From positions 1 through 63,261 of IMG/VR virus record IMGVR_UViG_3300026156_000001: a DNA stretch of 63,261 nt; one strand, given 5' to 3'. Below are positions 977 through 53,816 of the stretch, piece by piece (position 1 is the stretch's first letter; every line of letters starts with the position of its first letter). Source of the stretch: a virus. A model generated the notes under the pieces. It was not told the DNA's origin. It worked only from the letters and a program-made list of their open reading frames with translations, and ran no database searches. The translations under genes and the position numbers were made by a program.

Positions 977-1438
977 TTATCCTGTTTTAAATAAATTTTC
1001 TAAAGTGTTGAACATGCTGGAGTTGTAAGGGCTATCAATATGCATGGCGTTAATGATAAACTTATAAAAACCACTTATACCGTTTTTGGATTTTATTTGA
1101 GTTTTTTGGATTTTATATGTGTATTCGAAGCTCTCAACTATTTTGATTTTTTTGCTGTTCTCTGTACTAATTGTGTTTTTTTCAAAATCAAAATACAAAT
1201 ACATGTATTTCGTTGGTATTCCATAAATGTTATAAAATACATACAAAATTTTTTCAAATTCGTTAAATTGTTCATTTTCTTCACAATTTTGTGAACATGT
1301 TAGATTTCTGTTTTTCTCTCTCAATGTTGTGCTTATATCGGAACGTATGTCTTTTTGACTTTTTGCAACAAAAGTTAAATAATCTTCGCCGAATGTCTCT
1401 GAAAATTTTACATATTCCCCAATTCTTGATATTTTCAT
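977..1438 (-). CDS. Hypothetical protein, 153 aa
   Basis: Unrecognised soluble protein. The middle is rich in Tyr, Phe and Ile, and a CSQNCEEN segment near residue 50 holds two cysteines four residues apart. No signal peptide or membrane helix. Its start lies 23 bases below the stop of the YD-repeat gene, and a variant of the repeated leader sits in that gap, so it may be co-transcribed with the gene at 1462-1779. Confidence 0.55.
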   Translation of the reverse strand: MKISRIGEYVKFSETFGEDYLTFVAKSQKDIRSDISTTLREKNRNLTCSQNCEENEQFNEFEKILYVFYNIYGIPTKYMYLYFDFEKNTISTENSKKIKIVESFEYTYKIQKTQIKSKNGISGFYKFIINAMHIDSPYNSSMFNTLENLFKTG

Positions 1439-15286: not shown

Positions 15287-15535
15287 ATGAACGATATAAG
15301 AAAAATATCGGTTGGTAAAGACTACCCTAATAGTTCTATACACTTCCAAGTAGGTAAAAAAATAAGGTTACAGTACAAAGAATACACCGTCCACGAGATA
15401 TCTATCAATGAAGATTTACTGAAAGAAGGCTCATACGCTTATGATATTTACTTACGCGATGAAGATGCAGTTGTGTTCTGGAAGACTATCAAAGATATGC
15501 CTGTTGTTATTGAAAATAATATAAATTTTGAATGA
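15287..15535 (+). CDS. Hypothetical protein, 82 aa
   Basis: Soluble, mixed-charge protein with a beta-like centre (IRLQYKEYTVHEISI). Its stop overlaps the start of the GroES-like gene (ATGA at 15532-15535), implying coupled translation. Unknown function; possibly an assembly factor by position. Confidence 0.6.
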   Translation: MNDIRKISVGKDYPNSSIHFQVGKKIRLQYKEYTVHEISINEDLLKEGSYAYDIYLRDEDAVVFWKTIKDMPVVIENNINFE

Positions 15536-16107
15536 GAAGTATAAATTATATTATCGTAGAATTAGACACACCTTATTTAAACGAAGTAGAATTATCAGAT
15601 GGTAGTTCTTTTATAGTAAACTCTACGATAGAAAACGTGGATTATATTAATCGTGTAGCTACCGTTGCAGAAGCACCAGATTATACGATACTAAAAAAAG
15701 GTGATAAAATAATAGCTCATCATAATATTTTCAGATTAAGAAACGGAATCAAAGGTGAAAGATTAGATAGTAATTTTTTCATAGAAAACAATAAATACTT
15801 TGTACCATTAACTGAAATATTCATGTATGATTCAGGTAATGGTTGGGAAGCTATTGATCCTTTTTGTTTTGTAAAACCAATTAAAAAAGAATTAGAAGGT
15901 GAGTTTCAATTATCACTTTCCGAATGTAGTTATAAAGGTAATGTAAATCAACAAGGTATTTTGTGGTTTACTAACAATAGTCTTAGAGAACAAGGTGTTA
16001 AAAAGGGAGATAGGGTATTTTTTCGTAAGTATAGCGAGTATGAGTTTACTATAGATGGAGACATGTACTATAAAATGAAAACAACAGATATATTAGTGAA
16101 GAAATGA
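15532..16107 (+). CDS. Possible tandem GroES-like protein, 191 aa
   Basis: The first half reads like a GroES barrel: INYIIVELDTPYLNEVEL, a variable loop, then RVATVAEAP, LKKGDKIIAHHNI and a later FVKPI strand. The second half (about residues 128-191) again shows GILWFTNNSL, VKKGDRVFFRKYS and a closing TDILVKK strand. It looks like two co-chaperonin-type domains fused head to tail. It sits just before the terminase. Together with GroEL (52209-53816) and the clear GroES at 26957-27178 it could serve virion protein folding. The family link is from pattern only; another small beta-barrel is possible. Confidence 0.5.
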   Translation: MRSINYIIVELDTPYLNEVELSDGSSFIVNSTIENVDYINRVATVAEAPDYTILKKGDKIIAHHNIFRLRNGIKGERLDSNFFIENNKYFVPLTEIFMYDSGNGWEAIDPFCFVKPIKKELEGEFQLSLSECSYKGNVNQQGILWFTNNSLREQGVKKGDRVFFRKYSEYEFTIDGDMYYKMKTTDILVKK

Positions 16108-22974: not shown

Positions 22975-24336
22975 ATGCCTTTAAACGCAACACCAACCTA
23001 TAACGTGCAGCCTTCTTCACAGAAAGTTCCGTTAGCAACTAACTACATCTCCGAATTTGATTATTCAAATCAGTACGATGCAGAAAAACACGATGAACTA
23101 AAGAGAATCTATGGTTCACAATCCATTGCTGGTATGCTATATATGCTACAAGCAGAATCCTCTATGGCTTCAGATAAATTTATCTGGTCAGAAGAAGGAA
23201 GACTACACACTGTTTACACAGATGTAACTAGAGTAAACAATGTATTTACTAAAGCCAATCACGTATTTAGAGTTGGTGAAACTGTTCATTTGTCTGGTAC
23301 AGGTGCGGCAGCCGCTATCAAAAGACGTGGTGTGATTTCAGCTGTTGATGCTAATACTTTTACAGTAGAAGCTTACAAAAACGCAGGTTTTGCTGCATTG
23401 GGTGCTGCTGATATTGTAGCATTTGTGGACGGTTCTGAATTTGGAAAAGGTAGTGATGAAATGAACGGTAGTCTTTCTACAGATTTTACAATCTTAGAAA
23501 ACAAACCAATCATTTTGAGAGATACCTTTAAGGTAAATGGTTCTGATACCGCACAAATATGCTGGATAAATCACCCAGATGGTGGTTACCTATGGTTTTT
23601 ACATGACCAAAGAAACACACGAAGACGTTGGGAAGACCGAATGGAACTTTCAATGTTGAACGGAGAAGCAGCAGAAACTGGATCAGCAGCAGAGGCTAAT
23701 GGTACTACGGGTACAGAAGGTCTTTTTGAAGCTATTAAAACGAGAGGTAACTCTTTCCAAGGTCTTGCTGATGATATTACTGACTTTGATGATATCGTTA
23801 GACGATTCGACGCACAAGGTAAGATCCAAGATTATATGTTCTACGTAGATAGAGATCAGTCCTTGGCTATTGATAATATGTTAGGTGCTTTGAATGCTGG
23901 TTACAGTGGAGGTATTTCTTACGGTATTTTTGATAACGATAAGGATATGTCTGTAAATCTAGGATTTAAAGGATTTACTAGAGGAACTTATAACTTCTTC
24001 AAAACAGATTCAAAATTGTTTAACGATCCTACTACTATGGGTGCTGTAGATCCTGCATCTAAAATTAGAGGTGTACTTATTCCTGTTGGAACTAAAGAAG
24101 TTTACGAAGGTTCATATAACGGTAACGGAGCAGGTAGCAAAATCACTACTCCTTTCTTACAATGTATGTATCGTGCATCAGAGGTAGAAAACAGAAAATA
24201 CAAAACTTGGATCACAGGTTCTGTTTACGGTGGAACACCTACTGATGGAAGTGATGTAATGAAAGAACACCACTTATCCGAAAGAATGCTTAACACTGTA
24301 GGTGCTAACAACTTTATGCTTTTTGAAGGAGCATAA
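22975..24336 (+). CDS. Major capsid protein, 453 aa
   Basis: Order (scaffold, then this gene, then terminator), size and sequence fit a crAss-like/Cellulophaga podovirus capsid protein of the HK97 fold. Residues 75-165 contain an inserted beta domain (RVGETVHLSG...ADIVAFVDGS). A strong terminator follows at 24357-24387. Residues 312-331 (GGISYGIFDNDKDMSVNLGF) are encoded a second time, with 58 bp of perfect DNA identity, at the end of the gene at 51877-52209. This protein is the likeliest substrate for the phage chaperonin. Confidence 0.85.
   Translation: MPLNATPTYNVQPSSQKVPLATNYISEFDYSNQYDAEKHDELKRIYGSQSIAGMLYMLQAESSMASDKFIWSEEGRLHTVYTDVTRVNNVFTKANHVFRVGETVHLSGTGAAAAIKRRGVISAVDANTFTVEAYKNAGFAALGAADIVAFVDGSEFGKGSDEMNGSLSTDFTILENKPIILRDTFKVNGSDTAQICWINHPDGGYLWFLHDQRNTRRRWEDRMELSMLNGEAAETGSAAEANGTTGTEGLFEAIKTRGNSFQGLADDITDFDDIVRRFDAQGKIQDYMFYVDRDQSLAIDNMLGALNAGYSGGISYGIFDNDKDMSVNLGFKGFTRGTYNFFKTDSKLFNDPTTMGAVDPASKIRGVLIPVGTKEVYEGSYNGNGAGSKITTPFLQCMYRASEVENRKYKTWITGSVYGGTPTDGSDVMKEHHLSERMLNTVGANNFMLFEGA
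23911..23968 (+). repeat. 58-bp segment of the capsid gene duplicated at 51882-51939
   Basis: Perfect match in inverted genome orientation to 51882-51939. With one mismatch it extends a few bases further left. It encodes the same 20 residues in frame in both genes. Confidence 0.9.
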
Positions 24337-33747: not shown

Positions 33748-36700
33748 ATGGATGAATTTGAAAAACTATATAACGTAGTTAGTGAAACTAAATTATACAG
33801 TAAATCTTTTGATGAATTTAAAGAGAAGTACTCGAACGAAGAAAACATAAATAAACTATATAACGTAGTTAGTGAAACTAAATTATACAGTAAATCTTTT
33901 GATGAATTTAAAGATAAATACTTTAATCAACAATCATTAACACCCCCTGTGTCAAAAAAAGCACAAGCCGTACCGAGTGGGGGATCAGAATCAGTATCGG
34001 CAAATATTACTTCTTCATCGGAGTCCGTAGATCCCAACAACGCTATAAAACTACAAGAAAGAGCGACTAAAGAAATCATTCAAGAGTATGAGAAACAAGG
34101 TGTAAAAAACTATAACATTACACCAGAAGAAGTCAATGAAAGAGCGACCGTAATACAGCTCAAAGATCAAACTACACCTGTATTCGATAGAAACTCATTA
34201 AACCTACCAGACAAAGATTATCAAGGTTTGGCTGCTTATGAAGCAACACAAAAACCAGACTATGAGAAATTTACTGTAGAAAAACAGAAAAAGAATTTTG
34301 AAGAATTAGCTAATAGAGATACTTTTAAGTACAAGAAAAGTATTATAAACGAACCTATAGATTACGAAAATACGGTTTTGAACTTTACTGATCAACAGAA
34401 AGAAGATATAGGTGTTCAAAAACCAGAAACCGTTAGTAAAATATATGGAGGTGATTTAGATCAATACGGTATAGATTTTGAAGATTTTAATGGTTATATA
34501 GAAGGTGGTAATAACAGAATCAAAAAATTGTACAAAGATGGTTATTTCACAGATGACACAACAGATTTTTTCAAATCTGAATCAGATGAAAAACTAATTA
34601 GAGAGGTTGCTAAAAACAATACTTTATCAGGATATGTTAAAGATAGGGTGGATTACTTAAACGGTAAATACCTAGGGTTAATCAATACAAACAATTTAGA
34701 AGGTGCTAGAAAAGTAGAAGACGAAATTAAAAAAATTACCAAAGGTTATCAACAATATGTTAATGATAAACTACCCACTTATAAAAAAGCAATCGACGAT
34801 AAGTTAGTAAAAGAATATGACGAATACAAAAACCAAAAGACACTAGGTGGTATTAAGAAAGAGAGAGGAATTACTGACTTACACAAAAAACTAGGTGATA
34901 TTACATTCGGTAATTTCTTCGGGGGTATTGGTAAAGCAACAAGTAACATAACCTCTTTCGCTTTAGACTTAGTAGGTTCAGAAGGGGAAGCGGAATATCA
35001 AAGAATGATACAAGAAACCAACGATGAGTTAGACCATAATTCATTAACCTATGGTGTTGTATCTGGTAAAAAAGTAAATCATAAAGGTAAAAACTTAATT
35101 GTTAGTAGTAAAGGTAGAATAATAGATACTGACGAAAGTAAAGATATTACATCAATTGCTGATAAAATAGGGATTGACAGAGATACTGTTTTAGAAAAAG
35201 CAAAACAATCAGAAGAGGAAGGTACTACATATAGCCTCATGGGGTTAATTAGTATGGGTGCTTCTACACTTGGTGATTTAGCAGTTCAACTAGCTACCAC
35301 TAAAGGTTTGTTAGGAGGAGCTAATAAAGTTAGTAAACTTAAAGCGTTAGGTACATCTATGGCTGTTCAGTCAGGTATGGTTACGTCATCTGTTTATGAA
35401 GACACATTATCACAACTTAGAAAAGCCAATATAAACGACGAAAAAGCTATAGGGGAAGCACTAGATTTGTCTTTTAATGCTGGGTTATTAACAGCAGGAT
35501 TATCTATTATATCCCCTGATACGAAAGCGTTAGGCGTGTCTTTAAAAGGTGTCGATAAAAAATTCTCAAAAGAATTAGCAGAATCCTATGTTAAGTTTGG
35601 TAAAGAAGGGTTTAAAAGAACGTTTGCTAAAAAAGCAGCAGAGAAAGGTATAGACTTGACATCAGAAGGTGGTAAGCAAGTATTAGAAGAATTAGGAGAA
35701 AATATAGGACAAAAAAAACTAAACGAAGGTGTCAATGAAGAAGTCGGAAAAGACGTATTAGACACCAAAATTACAAAAGGGGAAATCATCGAAACAGGAT
35801 TACTTTCTTTTTCTACTATTGGTTTAGTAACAGCTTTGAATAGTAAGTCTCCAAGCATCAATAAAGATAGGTTCGGAATGCTTGAATACTTTGCACAAGA
35901 TGTAGAGACTTCTAAAGAATTTATCAATAACTTCAAAGAAGAAGGTGCTATATCTGAAAGTAGTGCAAACGATATTATTAAAGATATCGAAACCTACGCT
36001 AAGTATTCAAACAAAATACCAGAGGATACACCTATAGAGAAACTAGACCCTTTACTAAAGGCTGTAGATAAACGTAACGAACTAGAGCTAAAGAAGAAAA
36101 ATCAAGATAAGGCTTTTCATAAAGAAATTAATGAAGAGATTGAAAAAGTAGATGAGGAAATAGCTGAAATAAGAAGTAGTAAAGTAGATGAAGAAATTAC
36201 TAAAGATCAAGAAACAGATGTAGATAATAAAACAGAAGATGTTTTATCGGATCAGGAGTACGAAAAAATGTTGGATGATTATAATACTGCAGTTGAGATT
36301 GGCGCTATTGACGAAAGTGCCATTACTGAATTGGAGTTAGCCGACCGCCGTAACGCAGAAGAGGGAGAACTTTTACAGGAAGAGTTAGAACTTTTAGACT
36401 CTACTGAAAAACAAACAGGAGATAAGTACGCGTTTATCCACAAAAACTTGAGAGGAATCAGATCTCAAGATTATGGAGGTATTGCTGGAGATAATAACCT
36501 AAGGAAAGATAATAAAAGTTTCAATATTTTATACGCCAATAAAAAAGCAATACCTTTGGATGGACAAGCACAGGTAATGTCCCAAAAATTTGGTGATGAG
36601 ATAACACCACAAGATATAATTGATTACGTGGAAGACAGGGAAAGAAACCCAGAAAAATATAAAACATCTAAAGACAAAAGAAAAAAATTAGAAAAAGCCA

Positions 36701-39700
36701 TTGAGATAAATTTTGATTTAGAATCTTCTACAGACGCATACAAAAGATATATGAATTTAGATGATTCTAAAGAATCTTTTGAAGCACTTGATAAATTAGA
36801 AGATAAGGTTTTAACAAATGAGCAAATCAGTATAATAAAAAAATATTTAAAACAAAAAGGAGATGTTAAAAAACAACTTAAAACCAACAAAACAACAAGT
36901 AGAGGTGTACAACAACTTGATGAGACTACTCAAAGAAGCGAGAGAAGAAATGAAGGAAAAGAAGAAAACAAAGGAGTAGAGAAAGTAGCTGGAACATCGG
37001 GTACTAAGACAAAAAATATAAAAGGTTTATATGATGTAAACCGAAAGATATTTAATCTAAATAGAGTTCAAGCATTAGCATCATCCGTTATTCAAGATAG
37101 AATGATTGGACAGATGGCTAAACGCGCAGGTATTTCTAAAGAAAAAATGTATGATAAGATTGAGTTTAAGAAAGGGGATAAAAACACTTTAAAAGATTTA
37201 CCAAAAGGTATTAAGTTTCAAATAGACGCTTTTCATGGAAGTCCTTATCAGTTTGATAAGTTCCAATTATCTAAAATAGGCACAGGAGAAGGTTTACAAG
37301 CATTTGGGTGGGGTTTGTACTTTACTGATTTAGAATCCATTGCAAGACATTATGCAAATGTTTTGTCAGAATACTCATTTTATATAAACGGTAAAAACGT
37401 AGATAATGTTAAGAAAGAATATCCATCTATTTATGTTGTTGGATTTGATTTACTTGGAGCAAAATCAAAACAAGATGCAATAAATGCAGTCAAAAACAGC
37501 AAGATAGCATCTAATAAACAAAAATCAAAAGCTATTGAATTATTAAACTCATTAGAGAGTTTTAGTTCCAAAAAAGATAGTCGGTTTTTATATGAAGTAA
37601 CCCTTTTTAAAGGTAAAACACCTGACCAATACACTTGGTTGGAGTGGGATAAGGAGTTAACAAAAGAACAAAAGCAAAAAATAGCAGAGCAAGCAATTAA
37701 AGAAGGTCTTACCAAAGTTGCTTACACAAATGAAAGTGGAGTGAATGTTTTAAACACTTCAAATAACATAACTGGTGAAACTTATTACAAAGAATTACAA
37801 AAATCTTTTTTACTTGGAAGCGACAAAGAAGTATCTTTATTTCTTTTAAGAGCAGGCATCGATGGCATAAAATACCCTGCCGAAAGCATATCAAGAGGAG
37901 CGACAAGTGATACGGCAAGAGGATTCAACTATGTTGTATTTGATGAAAATGCTGTAAGTATAGAAGAGGTAATCAAGTTTCAAAAGGATGCCGAAAAAAC
38001 TAGAGGTGCTGCTATGGTTAACATGGATGGAACAGCTATCATCTACGCTTTAACAGACCCTAACGTATCTACGCCACTTCACGAAATGGCACACGTTTAC
38101 GAGCATTATTTAAACGAATCAGAAAAAACAGCTATTAAACAATGGGCTAAAACTAAAGAGTGGACTACGGAAACATCAGAGAAATTCGCTAGAGGTTTTG
38201 AAAAATATTTAGCAGATGGTAAAGCACCTACTTCTGATTTAAGAAAAATGTTTGAGAGATTTAAAAAATGGTTAACTGATATTTATAATGGTATTAAAGA
38301 TAGTGAAATAGATCTTAAACTTAATGATGAAATGAAGACCATATACGATAAGATGTTAGGAGGAGATCAAGTAGAAAAACAGTCAGGATTAATAGAAAAA
38401 CAGTCAGGATTAACTAAAACAAAAAAACCAACTAAAAAAACAAAAACTTCTATTGATGAATCGAAAATAGAAGATGTAGATTTTGAAGAAGTCGATGGTA
38501 AAAAAGAAAAACCAAAAGATAAAGTAAGACCCGAAAAAGTTATTCATGAAGAGTATGTAGATAACGACGGTAACGAGTTAATTGCTACCACGACTAAAGA
38601 CGGAACTAAAACTTTCTACTACAAACAAAAAGGTAAATCATTTAGTTTTGGTACAGGTAAAAAGAAAACAGCTACACAACAAGAATTAGTCGATAACGGT
38701 ATTCTTTCAACTTCTACAACCCCTATTAAGTCTTACACTAGTTTGGATGCAGGTAAAGGTAAATCTTTTGAAAACGATTTAAAACAATTACTACAAGATA
38801 GAATTAAAGAGATCAAAACTCAAATAAAAGAAGAGAAGAAAGAATCGAAGAGATCTGTACTAATAGAAGAATTAAACAACAAAAAGAAACAGTTATCATC
38901 TTTAAACAAGGACACGACTAGAACAAACATGAGTCAAGAGTTAGATGAACAACTAGACGAGGTTATTGAAGAAATTAGTAAAAAAGAATCTGAAAAAGAA
39001 ACAAAACTCACTCAATTACAAAAACTTAATAAGTTTATATCTGGGGGTAGAAAAAGGGTATTTGGTTTTGTTAATAAAACCACATTACCTATAGTTTCTG
39101 AAATAGAGTTAATAGGTTCTAAGTTGTCTGAATTACAGATGATTTCAAAAGAGAATGCTAAAAAGTATAAGACCACATATAAAAAAGCATTAGAAAATTA
39201 CATTTTCAAAAGTAAATTAGACAAAGAAACAGCTAAGGTTAATCTAACAGGGATGGTTAAAGACCTAATGACACCTGTTGATAGGAATACAAATTCTAAA
39301 GATGCGTATGACCAACTTAGTAAAGTATCTAAAGATTTAGCCGATACAGTAATCGGACTAAGATCACACATCGATTCCTTCTCTAAAATAGTTACCGAAG
39401 ACCCTGCTTTTGAAAGAATGTCAGAAGAATCTAAACAAAACATATTAGACAATTTAGGGGATTATGTACATCAGACATATCTGTATTTTAAAGAAAAAGA
39501 TTACAACCCCTCAGAAGGTTTAATCAACGAAGCAATACGAGAAGAAGCTAAACAAATAATGATCGATGAAGGTATCGGTTATAAAAAAGCAATAGACAAA
39601 GCTACTAAAACAGTAAACGATTTACTAGAGAAATGGGACGATATTAGAAATCCTAAAAATACTTATTCTAGTATCAACACCTCTACAAACACTTTGTCCA

Positions 39701-41802
39701 TGAGTGATGATTCACTTAAAGCTAAGGTACGGAAAGCTAAAAACAAAAAACTATGGGATCAAGCAGTAAAAGAAGCATCTGAAAAATACCCTAAGTTTAA
39801 GAAAAACCACAAAATGGTTTTAGATGAAGCTATTTCTATTTATGAAGGTTTAGGTGGTTTATTTCAACCAATGCCCGACCATATTAAAAAGTTACTAGGG
39901 GATATTAAATTACCAGAAGATCAGTACTTATCTACAATGATGGCTGTTGGTAAAATGGTTTATAAAGCACAAGCGTTAAAAACAATAAACGATAGATTTT
40001 TTGGTGAGTTTATATTCAATGAAAAACCTACAAAAAACGCTAAAGAATACGTTCAGGTAAATGATAAATCTAGTCCGCTGCACGGTAAGTGGGTTAATGA
40101 GTTTATAGCTAAGGAGTTTGAACAAGAGCCTATCTATAAAGCTAATACTACAGTAGGTCAAATTTACTTCAATGCTTTGACAGCAATGCGTAAGTCTAAA
40201 ATCCTACCTACTTCGAGTACATGGTTTAAAAACATAACTGGTTTAGCTGTATTTGGTCAAATATTGAATGGTAACTTTATTCTTTTAGAAGACCCTAAGG
40301 CATTTTTTCAATCTGTTGCAGGTAGAGGTAAGATGATGTTTACTGGAAACAGAACCGATTTCACAAAACAAATATTTGCAGACGCAGCAGAAGCAGGTGT
40401 ATTATCTACAGATATAAACCTAATTACTATGGGTTATATAGATGATATGTACAAACAAATGAGTTTAGGGAATGAATCAGCAGCAATAAATAAATTCGAT
40501 AAACTACAGAAAACAATTAGAAGAGGAGCTGGAAAGTTAGATAAAGAACTCGGTCAGAGATATGCACAAGTAGATGATTATGGTAAAGCTATGGCTGTTT
40601 ACGCACAAAAAGGATCAATGGCTAAAAAACTATATGGTAAAGAATATAAGGATTTAACAGAAACAGAAAGGATCGATGTACTACGTCAAACAGGAAACGA
40701 TGTTAAGTTAGGAAACCCTACTTTTTCAAGATTACCTAGTTGGTTTAAAGACGTAGCTAGATTCCCTACAGGTGATTACGTTTCTTTTCAAATAGAAGCT
40801 ACTAGATCGTTTGTAGGTGCTATTGCGATAGCGTACAATGATATTAAAACAGTTTCTACAGGTGTTGATTTTAGAGGGAATAAGATCAACGATGTTCAGA
40901 GAAAAGCCTATTTAAAATCTTTCGGTAAAAGGTCAGCAGGAATTAGTCTAATTGTAGGGTTCAATTTACTACTGAAACATAGCATAGAATCTATTTATAG
41001 ATATTTTTCTGATGACGACGAAGAGGAAATAATATTGAAAAAAGAAGCCGTTAACCTAAGACCTTTTTGGGTTGATGATAATCTGATTATAGAAAATATA
41101 GATGAGAAAGGTAATGCTAAATTCATAGATTATTCTGGTCAAGACCCTTACGCTAAAACAATAGGTATGATGCATTTGGATTATAGTAGTGTCAAAGGAT
41201 TATTTGAGCCAAATATGCTAATAAGTTTAATACGTGAAGCGTATGGAGGTAAAACAGATTTTGGTCAGCAATTATACACTAAAGAAGAACACCCTTTCTT
41301 TAAATTTTTAAAAGGAGTAAAACATATATTGGTAGGAGGTTACACCCCTCCACAAGCAGTATCTATGATATACGGTGCTAAAAAAGCGAAAAAAGAAGAT
41401 GAGAATTGGGGGTCTGTTGGGGATTGGTCAAGATTAGCGGCGAGTAGAGCGGCTTTTAGAAAGTATGACTTTAATATCTACGCAAGCGCAACTAGTTTGG
41501 TATGGGATGTTACAGATGATGATTCTGCACCAAAATTAGGGTATAGTAAAAATGAAAGCCAAATGATATTTAGAATACAGAATATTAAAAAGGTAAGGGA
41601 TGCGGTTAACGTACTCAATATGCACTACTATAAGAACAAAAATAAAAATACCAACGAAGGTGTTTCTAAATTTCAGAATGCCTTAGTTAGAAATTTTAGC
41701 TCATGGGAGAGAAACAATTTAATCAGTGTTTCAGAAGAGGAGTTTATAAGACAAGTTGAAGACCTAAAAAAGAATCCACAAAAAGCAATAAAACAAAAAT
41801 AA
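33748..41802 (+). CDS. Giant polyvalent virion protein with ART and zincin domains, 2684 aa
   Basis: Multidomain protein, likely packaged and delivered with the DNA. In order: two 30-residue N-terminal repeats (LYNVVSETKLYSKSFDEF, residues ~5-35 and ~35-65); a segment with possible membrane-active character (about 490-570); an ADP-ribosyltransferase of the polyvalent type (FHGSPYQFDKF...GTGEGLQAFGWGLYF near residues 1158-1200, ending near 1405 with NYVVFDENAVSIEE); a zincin with HEMAH near residue 1443; long Lys/Glu-rich helical linkers; and a C-terminal large polyvalent-protein-associated domain (about 2145-2500). Such proteins are thought to shield or reprogram the incoming genome's surroundings. 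Roles of the enzymes here are inference. Confidence 0.75.
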   Translation: MDEFEKLYNVVSETKLYSKSFDEFKEKYSNEENINKLYNVVSETKLYSKSFDEFKDKYFNQQSLTPPVSKKAQAVPSGGSESVSANITSSSESVDPNNAIKLQERATKEIIQEYEKQGVKNYNITPEEVNERATVIQLKDQTTPVFDRNSLNLPDKDYQGLAAYEATQKPDYEKFTVEKQKKNFEELANRDTFKYKKSIINEPIDYENTVLNFTDQQKEDIGVQKPETVSKIYGGDLDQYGIDFEDFNGYIEGGNNRIKKLYKDGYFTDDTTDFFKSESDEKLIREVAKNNTLSGYVKDRVDYLNGKYLGLINTNNLEGARKVEDEIKKITKGYQQYVNDKLPTYKKAIDDKLVKEYDEYKNQKTLGGIKKERGITDLHKKLGDITFGNFFGGIGKATSNITSFALDLVGSEGEAEYQRMIQETNDELDHNSLTYGVVSGKKVNHKGKNLIVSSKGRIIDTDESKDITSIADKIGIDRDTVLEKAKQSEEEGTTYSLMGLISMGASTLGDLAVQLATTKGLLGGANKVSKLKALGTSMAVQSGMVTSSVYEDTLSQLRKANINDEKAIGEALDLSFNAGLLTAGLSIISPDTKALGVSLKGVDKKFSKELAESYVKFGKEGFKRTFAKKAAEKGIDLTSEGGKQVLEELGENIGQKKLNEGVNEEVGKDVLDTKITKGEIIETGLLSFSTIGLVTALNSKSPSINKDRFGMLEYFAQDVETSKEFINNFKEEGAISESSANDIIKDIETYAKYSNKIPEDTPIEKLDPLLKAVDKRNELELKKKNQDKAFHKEINEEIEKVDEEIAEIRSSKVDEEITKDQETDVDNKTEDVLSDQEYEKMLDDYNTAVEIGAIDESAITELELADRRNAEEGELLQEELELLDSTEKQTGDKYAFIHKNLRGIRSQDYGGIAGDNNLRKDNKSFNILYANKKAIPLDGQAQVMSQKFGDEITPQDIIDYVEDRERNPEKYKTSKDKRKKLEKAIEINFDLESSTDAYKRYMNLDDSKESFEALDKLEDKVLTNEQISIIKKYLKQKGDVKKQLKTNKTTSRGVQQLDETTQRSERRNEGKEENKGVEKVAGTSGTKTKNIKGLYDVNRKIFNLNRVQALASSVIQDRMIGQMAKRAGISKEKMYDKIEFKKGDKNTLKDLPKGIKFQIDAFHGSPYQFDKFQLSKIGTGEGLQAFGWGLYFTDLESIARHYANVLSEYSFYINGKNVDNVKKEYPSIYVVGFDLLGAKSKQDAINAVKNSKIASNKQKSKAIELLNSLESFSSKKDSRFLYEVTLFKGKTPDQYTWLEWDKELTKEQKQKIAEQAIKEGLTKVAYTNESGVNVLNTSNNITGETYYKELQKSFLLGSDKEVSLFLLRAGIDGIKYPAESISRGATSDTARGFNYVVFDENAVSIEEVIKFQKDAEKTRGAAMVNMDGTAIIYALTDPNVSTPLHEMAHVYEHYLNESEKTAIKQWAKTKEWTTETSEKFARGFEKYLADGKAPTSDLRKMFERFKKWLTDIYNGIKDSEIDLKLNDEMKTIYDKMLGGDQVEKQSGLIEKQSGLTKTKKPTKKTKTSIDESKIEDVDFEEVDGKKEKPKDKVRPEKVIHEEYVDNDGNELIATTTKDGTKTFYYKQKGKSFSFGTGKKKTATQQELVDNGILSTSTTPIKSYTSLDAGKGKSFENDLKQLLQDRIKEIKTQIKEEKKESKRSVLIEELNNKKKQLSSLNKDTTRTNMSQELDEQLDEVIEEISKKESEKETKLTQLQKLNKFISGGRKRVFGFVNKTTLPIVSEIELIGSKLSELQMISKENAKKYKTTYKKALENYIFKSKLDKETAKVNLTGMVKDLMTPVDRNTNSKDAYDQLSKVSKDLADTVIGLRSHIDSFSKIVTEDPAFERMSEESKQNILDNLGDYVHQTYLYFKEKDYNPSEGLINEAIREEAKQIMIDEGIGYKKAIDKATKTVNDLLEKWDDIRNPKNTYSSINTSTNTLSMSDDSLKAKVRKAKNKKLWDQAVKEASEKYPKFKKNHKMVLDEAISIYEGLGGLFQPMPDHIKKLLGDIKLPEDQYLSTMMAVGKMVYKAQALKTINDRFFGEFIFNEKPTKNAKEYVQVNDKSSPLHGKWVNEFIAKEFEQEPIYKANTTVGQIYFNALTAMRKSKILPTSSTWFKNITGLAVFGQILNGNFILLEDPKAFFQSVAGRGKMMFTGNRTDFTKQIFADAAEAGVLSTDINLITMGYIDDMYKQMSLGNESAAINKFDKLQKTIRRGAGKLDKELGQRYAQVDDYGKAMAVYAQKGSMAKKLYGKEYKDLTETERIDVLRQTGNDVKLGNPTFSRLPSWFKDVARFPTGDYVSFQIEATRSFVGAIAIAYNDIKTVSTGVDFRGNKINDVQRKAYLKSFGKRSAGISLIVGFNLLLKHSIESIYRYFSDDDEEEIILKKEAVNLRPFWVDDNLIIENIDEKGNAKFIDYSGQDPYAKTIGMMHLDYSSVKGLFEPNMLISLIREAYGGKTDFGQQLYTKEEHPFFKFLKGVKHILVGGYTPPQAVSMIYGAKKAKKEDENWGSVGDWSRLAASRAAFRKYDFNIYASATSLVWDVTDDDSAPKLGYSKNESQMIFRIQNIKKVRDAVNVLNMHYYKNKNKNTNEGVSKFQNALVRNFSSWERNNLISVSEEEFIRQVEDLKKNPQKAIKQK
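33763..33914 (+). repeat. Tandem 62-bp perfect repeat (90-bp period) in the polyvalent gene
   Basis: 33763-33824 and 33853-33914 are identical over 62 bp, spaced 90 bp, giving two 30-residue units. Perfect DNA identity implies recent duplication or strong homogenisation. Slipped-strand changes could alter the unit number. Confidence 0.9.
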
Positions 41803-49795: not shown

Positions 49796-51880
49796 TTAAT
49801 TGATCTTAACTTTAGGATTACCATATTTCTCAACCAACCAATCCTTAACATACATATCATATTGTTTTTGTGTTGGTTGTTTCATAATACAGAATTTAAT
49901 AAACTTCTCTTCTTGTTTTTCAATCTTCTCTTTTTCTTTCTTCTCTTTGGATTCTCTAGCTAACCTTTCCTTTGTACCATCTATTTTGTGTATGATTTTA
50001 TAACACTCCGCAATATAGTAATTATAATCGACTTTATAATCAGAAAATGAGTCTTTTTTTACATATTTGTTTAATAACTTGACTTTATTGCCTCCTGCTT
50101 CAACTTCAATAATTCTATGTCCGTATTTTTCACCTACATGATGCTTACGTAATGTTAGTCCTTCTGTAGCTATATAGTATCTATTTGTTTTTTGTGTGGG
50201 TATAGATTCATCTATTTCAGAAGAGTACAAATCACAATACCAATCCCCAATCGCTCTAAATGTTTTACAAAAATCATAAATGTTTGTACACTGTTTTATA
50301 GTGTCCTCTACGGGTATGTTTTCTAAGAAGTATTTGTGTAATGCTTCCGTTACTATTGTTTGAGATAGTGATTTATGATACTCCTCGTCTCTAATGGTTT
50401 CGGCGTAAGTTTTAAAAGCACCTTTTGATTTTACTTTACCATCTGTATCAAGAGCGATGTAATTATTCACATCTCTGATAATCATTTTTTTGTATAGTGC
50501 GTATTCTAATGTTAATCCTGTTTTATTCTCCCACTGCTTACAAAGCTCGTACAGTTTGTTTTTTTGATCTTTGGGTATTTTTACAGTTAGACCATCTGTG
50601 TTAATTTGTAGCATGGTTAAATCATTCATGTTACTCATTAACATTTCAGACAACATACATAGTGATAGCTGACCAGCTAAAGTGGTTTTCAATGTGTACA
50701 AAGGATCGTACAACCAACTGTACTCTGAATTACTTTTGCCATAAACGCTGTTCAAGGATAGCTTAAACCCAGTGTTCATTACTTTATCTCCGTTTTTCTT
50801 AGCTTCTAATCTAGGTTTTAATAATCCATATTCGTACACATCTAAAAACTCTTTACCTAAGTGTTTTGGGTAAAGCTTATTAACAATAGCTAAACTAGGG
50901 TATAAACTAGCGACATCAACATCTACAAGAATATGTGTATCTGTAGATTCGTACACCCCAGATTTAATACTACCGTGAATACCTCCTGTACCTAAATCGA
51001 ATATAAAACCTTTATAATTAAAACTATATTTGAAACTACCTTTTAATTCTGTTACTTTAATGGATGATAAATAACTAAGTAAGTCCTTAAAATTGTCTGT
51101 GGTAAAATTTATATACTTCGGAATACATTCTGAAAAATTAAATTCTTTTCTATGTGTTCTTTTTTTTCTAATAATTTTCTCATCAACCCCTAATTCACTA
51201 CAATATAACTTTAACGTTAAATCTTCTCCAATCTTACTATCTGGGAAATTCATACAGTTCAATCCGTATTTTTTGTGAATACCTCTTCTTAGTTCTATTT
51301 TACCTGTGGTTTTCAAGTAAAAATCTAGGGTGGAATCAACATCGTTAAGGTTATAGTCCAGTATCTCTTGAACTTGTTGTTGTGTAGTTATTGTATCCGT
51401 ATGCTTGTATGGCATATCTTGAACATTGTCATAACGCAGGGCGATCTGTAACTTCTTCAAGGAAGTCATTCTAGCGTAATTATCGTAGTGCCATATTTTG
51501 AATAAATCTAATTGTGGGATTTTAACATATTGATCTTTAATAGATGACCATTCTTCTTTGATGACAGATTGTGCTTTTTCGTAGATCGAATCGACCATTT
51601 CGTCAACAGTAAAACACTCCCATTCTGTGTATTCGTTTAATATATAATGTAATACAGGATAATCAAAATCTAAATTGTTAACACCTACCTGACCCCTGAC
51701 GGATTTTAAATGTTTTACTAAATCCTCTATATCGTTCCTTTCATCCTCAAGACTATAATACCAAATGACGTACTGAACTAATTCTTTTGTATCTATGTTT
51801 CGTGCAGTGTAAGTAAAACAGTTACTAAGTGTTTCGATGTCATACACCCATATTTGTCTGTTATTCATAATTAATTTCAT
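49796..51880 (-). CDS. Family-B DNA polymerase, 694 aa
   Basis: Replicative polymerase with proofreading. Exo I DIET (14-17), Exo II NNLDFDYP (68-75) and Exo III YNLNDVD (176-182) are intact. Polymerase motif A is DVDVASLYPSL (320-330), motif B KLSLNSVYGKSN (373-384), motif C NTDG (427-430) instead of DTD, a change known in other phage PolBs, and SKGAFKTY is the KxY element. At 694 residues it is short: the C-terminal tail is charged and coiled (about residues 645-665). It overlaps the upstream gene by ATGA. No terminal-protein regions are obvious. Confidence 0.9.
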   Translation of the reverse strand: MKLIMNNRQIWVYDIETLSNCFTYTARNIDTKELVQYVIWYYSLEDERNDIEDLVKHLKSVRGQVGVNNLDFDYPVLHYILNEYTEWECFTVDEMVDSIYEKAQSVIKEEWSSIKDQYVKIPQLDLFKIWHYDNYARMTSLKKLQIALRYDNVQDMPYKHTDTITTQQQVQEILDYNLNDVDSTLDFYLKTTGKIELRRGIHKKYGLNCMNFPDSKIGEDLTLKLYCSELGVDEKIIRKKRTHRKEFNFSECIPKYINFTTDNFKDLLSYLSSIKVTELKGSFKYSFNYKGFIFDLGTGGIHGSIKSGVYESTDTHILVDVDVASLYPSLAIVNKLYPKHLGKEFLDVYEYGLLKPRLEAKKNGDKVMNTGFKLSLNSVYGKSNSEYSWLYDPLYTLKTTLAGQLSLCMLSEMLMSNMNDLTMLQINTDGLTVKIPKDQKNKLYELCKQWENKTGLTLEYALYKKMIIRDVNNYIALDTDGKVKSKGAFKTYAETIRDEEYHKSLSQTIVTEALHKYFLENIPVEDTIKQCTNIYDFCKTFRAIGDWYCDLYSSEIDESIPTQKTNRYYIATEGLTLRKHHVGEKYGHRIIEVEAGGNKVKLLNKYVKKDSFSDYKVDYNYYIAECYKIIHKIDGTKERLARESKEKKEKEKIEKQEEKFIKFCIMKQPTQKQYDMYVKDWLVEKYGNPKVKIN

Positions 51881-52209
51881 ATAAATCCTAGATTTACAGA
51901 CATATCCTTATCGTTATCAAAAATACCGTAAGAAATACCCCCATTTAGTTTAGTAGAATTACTGTCACCTGTTATCATAGGTGTAGAACAAGCATTCAAC
52001 TTGGTTATTTCATTGTCACCGTTGAAAATAATATTAACTCTTAACTCTTTATTGTCTATGTATTTTATGATACTGACCCATGAAGCACTTCCATCACTAA
52101 AACCATCCGATTCTACTTTATATTCTGATTTAGACAACGATTGTTCTATTAAAGACCTCATTGTTACCTCTTCTGACTCTCCTTTTTTATTTTTAATGTA
52201 TATTTTCAT
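51877..52209 (-). CDS. Chimeric protein: unknown domain plus 20 capsid residues, 110 aa
   Basis: Residues 1-89 (MKIYIKNKKGESEEVTMRSL...) form a small alpha/beta domain I do not recognise. Residues 90-109 are exactly the capsid residues 312-331 (GGISYGIFDNDKDMSVNLGF), with DNA identical over 58 bp (51882-51939), then one Ile and the stop. The stop overlaps the DNA polymerase start (ATGA) and the start overlaps the GroEL stop by one base (TAATG). The gene is thus wedged between groEL and polB. Either a recombination scar or a functional capsid-peptide tag; see findings. Confidence 0.75.
   Translation of the reverse strand: MKIYIKNKKGESEEVTMRSLIEQSLSKSEYKVESDGFSDGSASWVSIIKYIDNKELRVNIIFNGDNEITKLNACSTPMITGDSNSTKLNGGISYGIFDNDKDMSVNLGFI
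51882..51939 (-). repeat. 58-bp copy of capsid gene segment
   Basis: Perfect inverted match to 23911-23968; the match stops abruptly on the right and has one mismatch before a few more identical bases on the left. Confidence 0.9.
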
Positions 52210-53816
52210 TATTTATCTTTAAAATCAGAGACAGTAGCCTCTGTGGTTAATATCATTGTTGCAATAGAAGCTGCGGATTCTAATGCGACTCTAGTAACTT
52301 TTTTAGGGTCTATCACACCAGCTTTCAATAAGTTTTCGTAATTATCTGTTTTGAGGTTATAACCTAAAGGATAAGAAGCGAAAGGTATATTCTTTAATAT
52401 TTTAGATGGTTTTAATCCAGCATTACTTAAAATCTTATCGATAGGGGACTTTAGAGATTTCAATAGAATATTCATCCCTTTCTTTATGTCTTTATTCTCC
52501 TCTTCCGTTATCGCATCGAACTCTAAAACAATAGACGCATCTAGTAATGCTATACCTCCTCCTGCGACAACACCTTCTTCTATAGCTGCTTTTGTTGCTG
52601 ATAATGCATCATCTATTCTATCTTTCTTTTCGTTCATCTCCACCTCTGTATTTGCACCAACATATATTACGGCTACACCTCCAACTAATTTGGCTATACG
52701 ATCTCTTAGGTCTTTTTCATCTACTTCGTGTTTGCAGTTTTCTGCTTGTTGTGTTAAATCATCAATTTGTTTTTTGATTAGTGTACTGTCCCCACCACCT
52801 TTTATGAGAGTGGTTCTTTCAGAATCAACTACAATTTTCTCTACCGAACCAAACATTGATTGATTAAATTTATCTACAGTATTCCCAGTATTCTCTGATA
52901 CTAATGTACTCCCTGTTAATACACATAGATCATTGACAAAATTAGTTCTTTTGTCTTGATAGGAAGGTGCTTTTATAGGTATAATCCTAGAGTTCCCTTT
53001 TAATTTATTATGTACTAGAGTTCCGATCACCTCTCCTTCAAAATCATGTGCTACAATTACTAGTGGTCTCTTTAGTTCTATAGATGCGTTTATGATAGGT
53101 AATATATCTTTTGCACTTGCTACCTTACCATCATAAAATATAATTAGTGGATTCTCATATTCTGCTGTTAATTTCTTAGGGTTTGTTACAAAATATGGTG
53201 ATAACAATCCATTGATGAATTGGGTTCCTTCTACCAATTCTACATAGGTTTTAGTATCTTTAGATTCTTCGACTCTGATTACCCCTTCTTTACCGACCTT
53301 ATCAAATGCTTTAGAGATAATCTCTCCTATGTACTCATCTCCGTTTGCTGAAATACAAGCTATGTTTTTCAAATCGTCTTTATCGGTTACTTTTTCAGAA
53401 ACAAAATCTAGTTCTTTTACTACGATATCCACAGCTTTATCGATGCCTCTTTTTAAATCCATAAGATTTACATGGCGAAAAAATGGTAGTTTAGATCTGT
53501 TGATTACTTTAATACCCTCATTAACAATACTTTTTGCTAGTACACAAGTGGTTGTTGTTCCATCCCCTGCTAGATCAACTGTTTTACTAGCTCCTTCGAT
53601 GAGTAATTGCCCACCCATGTTTTCTACAAAATCTGGTAGGGATATGCTCCTAGCTACAGTAACACCATCTTTAGTTACATGAGGATTACCGTAATTGTTT
53701 TGTAGTATTACGTTCCTACCTTTTGCACCAAGAGTTACTCCCACAGCATCGGCTACTTTATTAAGTCCTGTTTGTAGTTTTTTCCTAGATTCTTTGTTGA
53801 ATTTAATTTCTTTCAT
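52209..53816 (-). CDS. groEL: GroEL chaperonin, 535 aa
   Basis: Full-length ATP-dependent folding cage subunit. ATP-binding GDGTTTTCVLA (near residue 85) and the catalytic region (KKDRIDDALSATKAAIEEGVVAGGG, near residues 390-415) are intact. Apical-domain sequence is more divergent, which suits a special substrate or co-chaperonin. The C-terminal GGM tail of bacterial GroEL is missing. Phage groEL is rare; the usual partner gene groES is not adjacent, but a GroES is encoded at 26957-27178 and a possible double one at 15532-16107. It overlaps the chimeric gene by one base. Confidence 0.95.
   Translation of the reverse strand: MKEIKFNKESRKKLQTGLNKVADAVGVTLGAKGRNVILQNNYGNPHVTKDGVTVARSISLPDFVENMGGQLLIEGASKTVDLAGDGTTTTCVLAKSIVNEGIKVINRSKLPFFRHVNLMDLKRGIDKAVDIVVKELDFVSEKVTDKDDLKNIACISANGDEYIGEIISKAFDKVGKEGVIRVEESKDTKTYVELVEGTQFINGLLSPYFVTNPKKLTAEYENPLIIFYDGKVASAKDILPIINASIELKRPLVIVAHDFEGEVIGTLVHNKLKGNSRIIPIKAPSYQDKRTNFVNDLCVLTGSTLVSENTGNTVDKFNQSMFGSVEKIVVDSERTTLIKGGGDSTLIKKQIDDLTQQAENCKHEVDEKDLRDRIAKLVGGVAVIYVGANTEVEMNEKKDRIDDALSATKAAIEEGVVAGGGIALLDASIVLEFDAITEEENKDIKKGMNILLKSLKSPIDKILSNAGLKPSKILKNIPFASYPLGYNLKTDNYENLLKAGVIDPKKVTRVALESAASIATMILTTEATVSDFKDK

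Follow-up and report, generated by a model that had tools for sequence, protein, structure and literature searches.

Recent copy of a capsid gene segment at the end of a small gene beside groEL in an uncultured phage

The DNA analysed (hereafter the window) comprises positions 1 to 63,261 of the IMG/VR virus record IMGVR_UViG_3300026156_000001. On its minus strand, the gene for a phage GroEL (Cpn60; 52209..53816) is followed by a gene for a 110-aa protein, here called X (51877..52209), and by a DNA polymerase gene of phrog_1252 (49796..51880), downstream of which lies a Holliday-junction-resolvase-like gene. An earlier note had placed X between groEL and the polymerase with overlaps of 1 and 4 bases. 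The position and the 1-base overlap with groEL are as described, whereas the 4-base overlap with the polymerase holds only if the first ATG is used, and not if translation starts at 51868 (fifth codon, second ATG), probably the start conserved in relatives. Since these relatives align from the fifth residue of the polymerase, the ancestral start was probably at 51868, in which case X would end 8 bases upstream. The plus strand carries the gene for the major capsid protein (453 aa, phrog_13704, Pervagoviridae/elemo-like; 22975..24336) and that for a Cpn10-like (GroES-type) protein, which adjoins the terminase (15532..16107). Relatives of the capsid protein are found in Cellulophaga phage phi38:1 (Pervagoviridae, 56% identity), Maribacter phage Panino and the Flavobacterium elemo phages, and the phage, which is uncultured, is related to viruses of marine flavobacteria; groEL and GroES-like genes are also present in phi38:1 and elemoE.

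The window is not a complete genome, since contig 3300026157_000009, identical to it over 1-26299, extends its left end by 2360 bp. Near this end two tandem genes of 153 aa (419-880 and 977-1438, minus strand) are accompanied by about 80 bp of near-identical sequence (338-417 and 899-978), and similar copies are present where contig G004 extends upstream; the first of the two genes matches the Pfam model Phage_TreK and the second does not. In addition, an ORF of 2684 aa (33748-41802) has an 81-bp direct duplication at its start (33763-33843 and 33853-33933).

The C-terminal residues 90-109 of X, GGISYGIFDNDKDMSVNLGF, are residues 312-331 of the major capsid protein, and the underlying DNA is identical over 58 bp (23911-23968, plus strand, and 51882-51939, minus strand), both as the earlier note had reported. 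The match is in fact longer, with 61 of 62 bp identical between the source segment (23907-23968, plus strand) and the copied segment (51882-51943, minus strand), which codes for residues 90-109 and one base of codon 110; its length is far above chance. The sole mismatch, at 23910 on the capsid side, concerns the third position of a glycine codon, and as a related strain has still another base there in its capsid gene, the donor allele may have matched X at 62 of 62 positions. The copy is in the sense orientation and in frame, which would occur by chance in 1 of 6 cases, and it sits exactly at the junction between X and the polymerase. Taking as dispersed repeats exact matches of at least 24 bp with copies more than 1 kb apart, the 58-bp repeat is the only one in the window. 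A survey of 7 further large contigs or genomes and of portions of 2 others, all with related capsid genes, showed no dispersed exact repeat of such length in protein-coding genes; what it returned were contig-end repeats, two repeats of 24-25 bp and, in phi38:1, repeats within its tRNA-rich region. The copy corresponds to the capsid allele of the phage itself at 58 of 58 positions, while the nearest other capsid genes differ from it at 6-16 of 60 positions. With no differences in 58 bp, the copy is recent. A second copy of the capsid peptide was found in none of the 24 relative records searched.

As the window is a metagenome-derived virus record, the copy could in principle be an assembly or sequencing artefact. 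Against this, IMG/VR contig 3300007984_000003 (42,092 bp), assembled separately, contains both copies with all their junctions and flanks in the same places and is collinear with the window over 42 kb, from which it differs by 17 SNPs and 2 one-base gaps, all lying outside both copies and none in X; misassembly is therefore very unlikely. The private mismatch at the left edge of the copy and the intact reading frame also speak against an artefact, to which we assign next to no probability. This contig and contig 3300026197_000127, which come from different metagenomes, both break at 52801-52808, inside groEL.

Upstream of the copied segment, X consists of a body (residues 1-78; 51976..52209, minus strand), a folded domain of two strands, a helix and four strands belonging to phrog_31941, and a linker predicted to be disordered (residues 79-89, ITGDSNSTKLN; 51943..51975, minus strand), which may be the native C-terminus of X or junction sequence. 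Residues 2-78 match phrog_31941 with E-values of 6e-6 to 9e-6, and the body shares 29-33% identity with the corresponding protein of Cellulophaga phages phi17:2 and phi4:1 (gp152). A weaker match was found to the C-terminal domain of a 208-aa protein of phage KTN4, which ends at the corresponding STP motif. In the AlphaFold model of X the body is fairly confident (pLDDT about 80) and the disordered end begins at residue 78. The best structural match obtained with Foldseek is the phi17:2 protein (E 1.1e-6), although this match is not fully independent, as the alignment behind the model contained the near-identical phi4:1 protein; no solved structure matched the fold of the body with E <0.1. X thus resembles gp152 along the whole body and in predicted fold, but the two differ in that their identity is only about 30%, gp152 has no capsid-derived tail and phi17:2 has no groEL.

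None of the X homologues (phi17:2/phi4:1 and KTN4) contains the capsid peptide, and all terminate at the position corresponding to residue 78 or no more than about 20 residues from it. The absence of the tail from the phi17:2/phi4:1 homologues indicates that it is an addition and not a feature of the phrog_31941 family, so that, as judged from these alignments, the tail does not appear to be part of the ancestral X protein. According to the earlier note, a role for the tail would be contradicted by relatives with the same function in which the protein has another end and does not match the capsid; in these last two respects the relatives do answer the description. A wider search for relatives of the body, in viral and bacterial contigs, returned only phi4:1-type phages, and no tail-less close relative carrying X was found. 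Matches of 36-39% to X residues 36-109, obtained with tblastn in other contigs, proved to be capsid proteins, and the part of the match outside the tail was taken as spurious extension. We propose that X is a small phage gene acquired horizontally.

The predicted model of the capsid protein (mean pLDDT 69) matches HK97-type capsids, the closest solved structures being VP1 and phicrAss001. In this fold the source segment is a conserved loop leading from a helix to a strand, which the monomer model leaves uncertain, and by conservation the copied peptide falls within the highest 1.6% of all 20-residue windows of the capsid protein. The synonymous sites of the segment are conserved to an ordinary degree (rank 113 of 434). 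This bears on the possibility that the 58-bp inverted repeat works at the level of DNA or RNA, either as a recombination site or as a regulator site common to both mRNAs, as its inverted orientation, its near-perfect identity and its location just ahead of the polymerase start might suggest. Such an element would not be expected from the ordinary synonymous conservation; moreover, no inversion isomer is seen, the separately assembled contig having the same orientation as the window through both copies, and inversion would break the capsid gene. We therefore rejected a role at the nucleic-acid level on the grounds of synonymous conservation and collinearity, and leave it only a small residual probability.

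The contents of the slot between groEL and the polymerase vary among relatives. In the closest syntenic phage (G019, 76.6 kb), groEL, a gene for a 123-aa MazG-type pyrophosphatase and a 66%-identical polymerase follow one another in the groEL-gene-polymerase order that the window also has. The same kind of pyrophosphatase precedes a 58%-identical polymerase in G006, in which groEL was not found. Neither of these two phages has X or the capsid insert, and the window has no MazG-type pyrophosphatase gene. In two further relatives (G017 and G018) a different polymerase directly follows groEL, and in phi38:1 groEL is followed by an exonuclease. Among the relatives sampled, the location of X beside groEL is thus peculiar to this lineage, and in none of them is X linked to groEL.

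The pyrophosphatase genes end just before or at the polymerase start, with the 3' sequences GGAGGTAAGAAATTTTAAT in G019 and GGAGGTAAAAAATTCTAATG in G006. The upstream edge of the segment copied from the capsid gene is GGAGGTA, which occurs only once in that gene and is also present in both pyrophosphatase 3' ends; matches of at least 7 nt to both ends are found for 0.7% of positions drawn at random from the window and for 1.5% of those in the capsid gene, in a test that is post hoc and with X today reading GGGGGTA. The downstream edge has just 5 nt in common, which is not significant. The shared GGAGGTA would be consistent with a template switch where the older gene ended. We also compared the linker of X by eye with the C-terminus of the pyrophosphatase, in search of a remnant, and saw no meaningful similarity beyond N-G-G.

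Taken together, the tail-less homologues, the variable slot, the 58/58 copy and its place at the junction, the predicted disorder of the tail, the lack of a second copy of the peptide in the relatives searched and the resolvase-like gene downstream of the polymerase favour the alternative that the earlier note had itself offered, a recent template-switch scar, and we consider it probable that the tail arose in this way, by recombination at the 3' junction as one gene replaced another. In the proposed sequence of events, X would have taken the slot between groEL and the polymerase that is held by the pyrophosphatase gene in G019, and about 60 bp of the phage's own capsid gene would have been copied into the 3' junction between X and the polymerase by template switching, that is, by patch synthesis at short homologies. 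This copy would have given X a new and probably disordered C-terminal tail of 20 residues. We infer that a single event may account for both the gene swap and the capsid copy, and that the tail probably has no function under selection. Among known processes, X comes close to phage mosaicism produced by illegitimate or microhomology-mediated recombination, in which templated filler DNA marks the joint. X is similar in having a short copy of a distant sequence at a new gene-gene joint, with a few shared bases at an edge, but here the capsid gene of the same phage supplied the filler, which runs in sense, keeps the reading frame and lengthens a coding sequence. In the literature, searches returned no specific account of templated insertions in phages. 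Some observations count against a scar, namely the conservation rank of the peptide, which a random scar would not predict, the sense and in-frame orientation of the copy, and the post hoc nature of the upstream microhomology together with the mere 5 nt downstream; nor was a close relative found that has X without the tail.

The conservation of the captured stretch is also the main argument for a different proposal, that the tail is a selected capsid mimic which would direct X to the phage GroEL, or would compete with unfolded capsid protein or sense it, and would so tie the use of the chaperonin to capsid supply. X directly follows groEL on the minus strand, the two genes overlapping by 1 base as members of one operon would, and the phage also encodes the Cpn10-like protein. 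There is in addition a precedent in T4, in which folding of the capsid protein gp23 needs GroEL and the phage protein gp31, and the N-terminus of gp23 was reported to direct proteins fused to it to GroEL (PMC3012670). The two cases share a phage capsid segment joined to another protein and the presence of phage chaperonin machinery, but the part of gp23 that targets GroEL is its N-terminus, whereas X carries an internal loop. Moreover, the homologues of X lack the tail, the groEL neighbourhood is not conserved, no Cpn60 match was found in phi17:2 or KTN4, both of which have X homologues, and the relatives that do carry groEL have no second copy of the peptide. The suggestion of the earlier note that X is a substrate mimic, a GroEL adaptor or a folding sensor thus draws on the conserved peptide and the T4 precedent, and finds little support in the context of groEL, the homologues or the varying slot; we regard it as unlikely.

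A conserved capsid loop could also serve in defence, as a decoy by which X binds or pre-empts a host sensor of that loop, in the manner of Lit/Gol or of a capsid-sensing TIR protein. Capsid segments are known triggers of such systems (the Gol peptide for Lit, and those of CapRel and TIR), and the captured loop is highly conserved. The T4 Gol peptide that activates Lit is, like the tail of X, a short internal capsid peptide, but no Lit-like sensor or activity is known here. As this capsid family has no known sensor, X has no match to any defence-related model and its homologues are tail-less, we see only a slight chance of a decoy. More broadly, it is conceivable, though unlikely, that one of the most conserved loops of the phage's capsid protein was recruited as a C-terminal tag on the small protein beside GroEL, where it would steer or meter capsid folding or act as a decoy for a capsid sensor.

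With the capsid segment in X, part of a structural gene has become the new end of a protein, in an unusually clean and recent example in which donor, target and probable ancestral locus are all visible; on the scar reading, it illustrates how coding scars can remain after a gene swap in a phage operon. A tail under selection would amount to a natural tag, made of a capsid peptide and encoded beside a phage chaperonin, and what GroEL recognises in a capsid protein would become directly testable.
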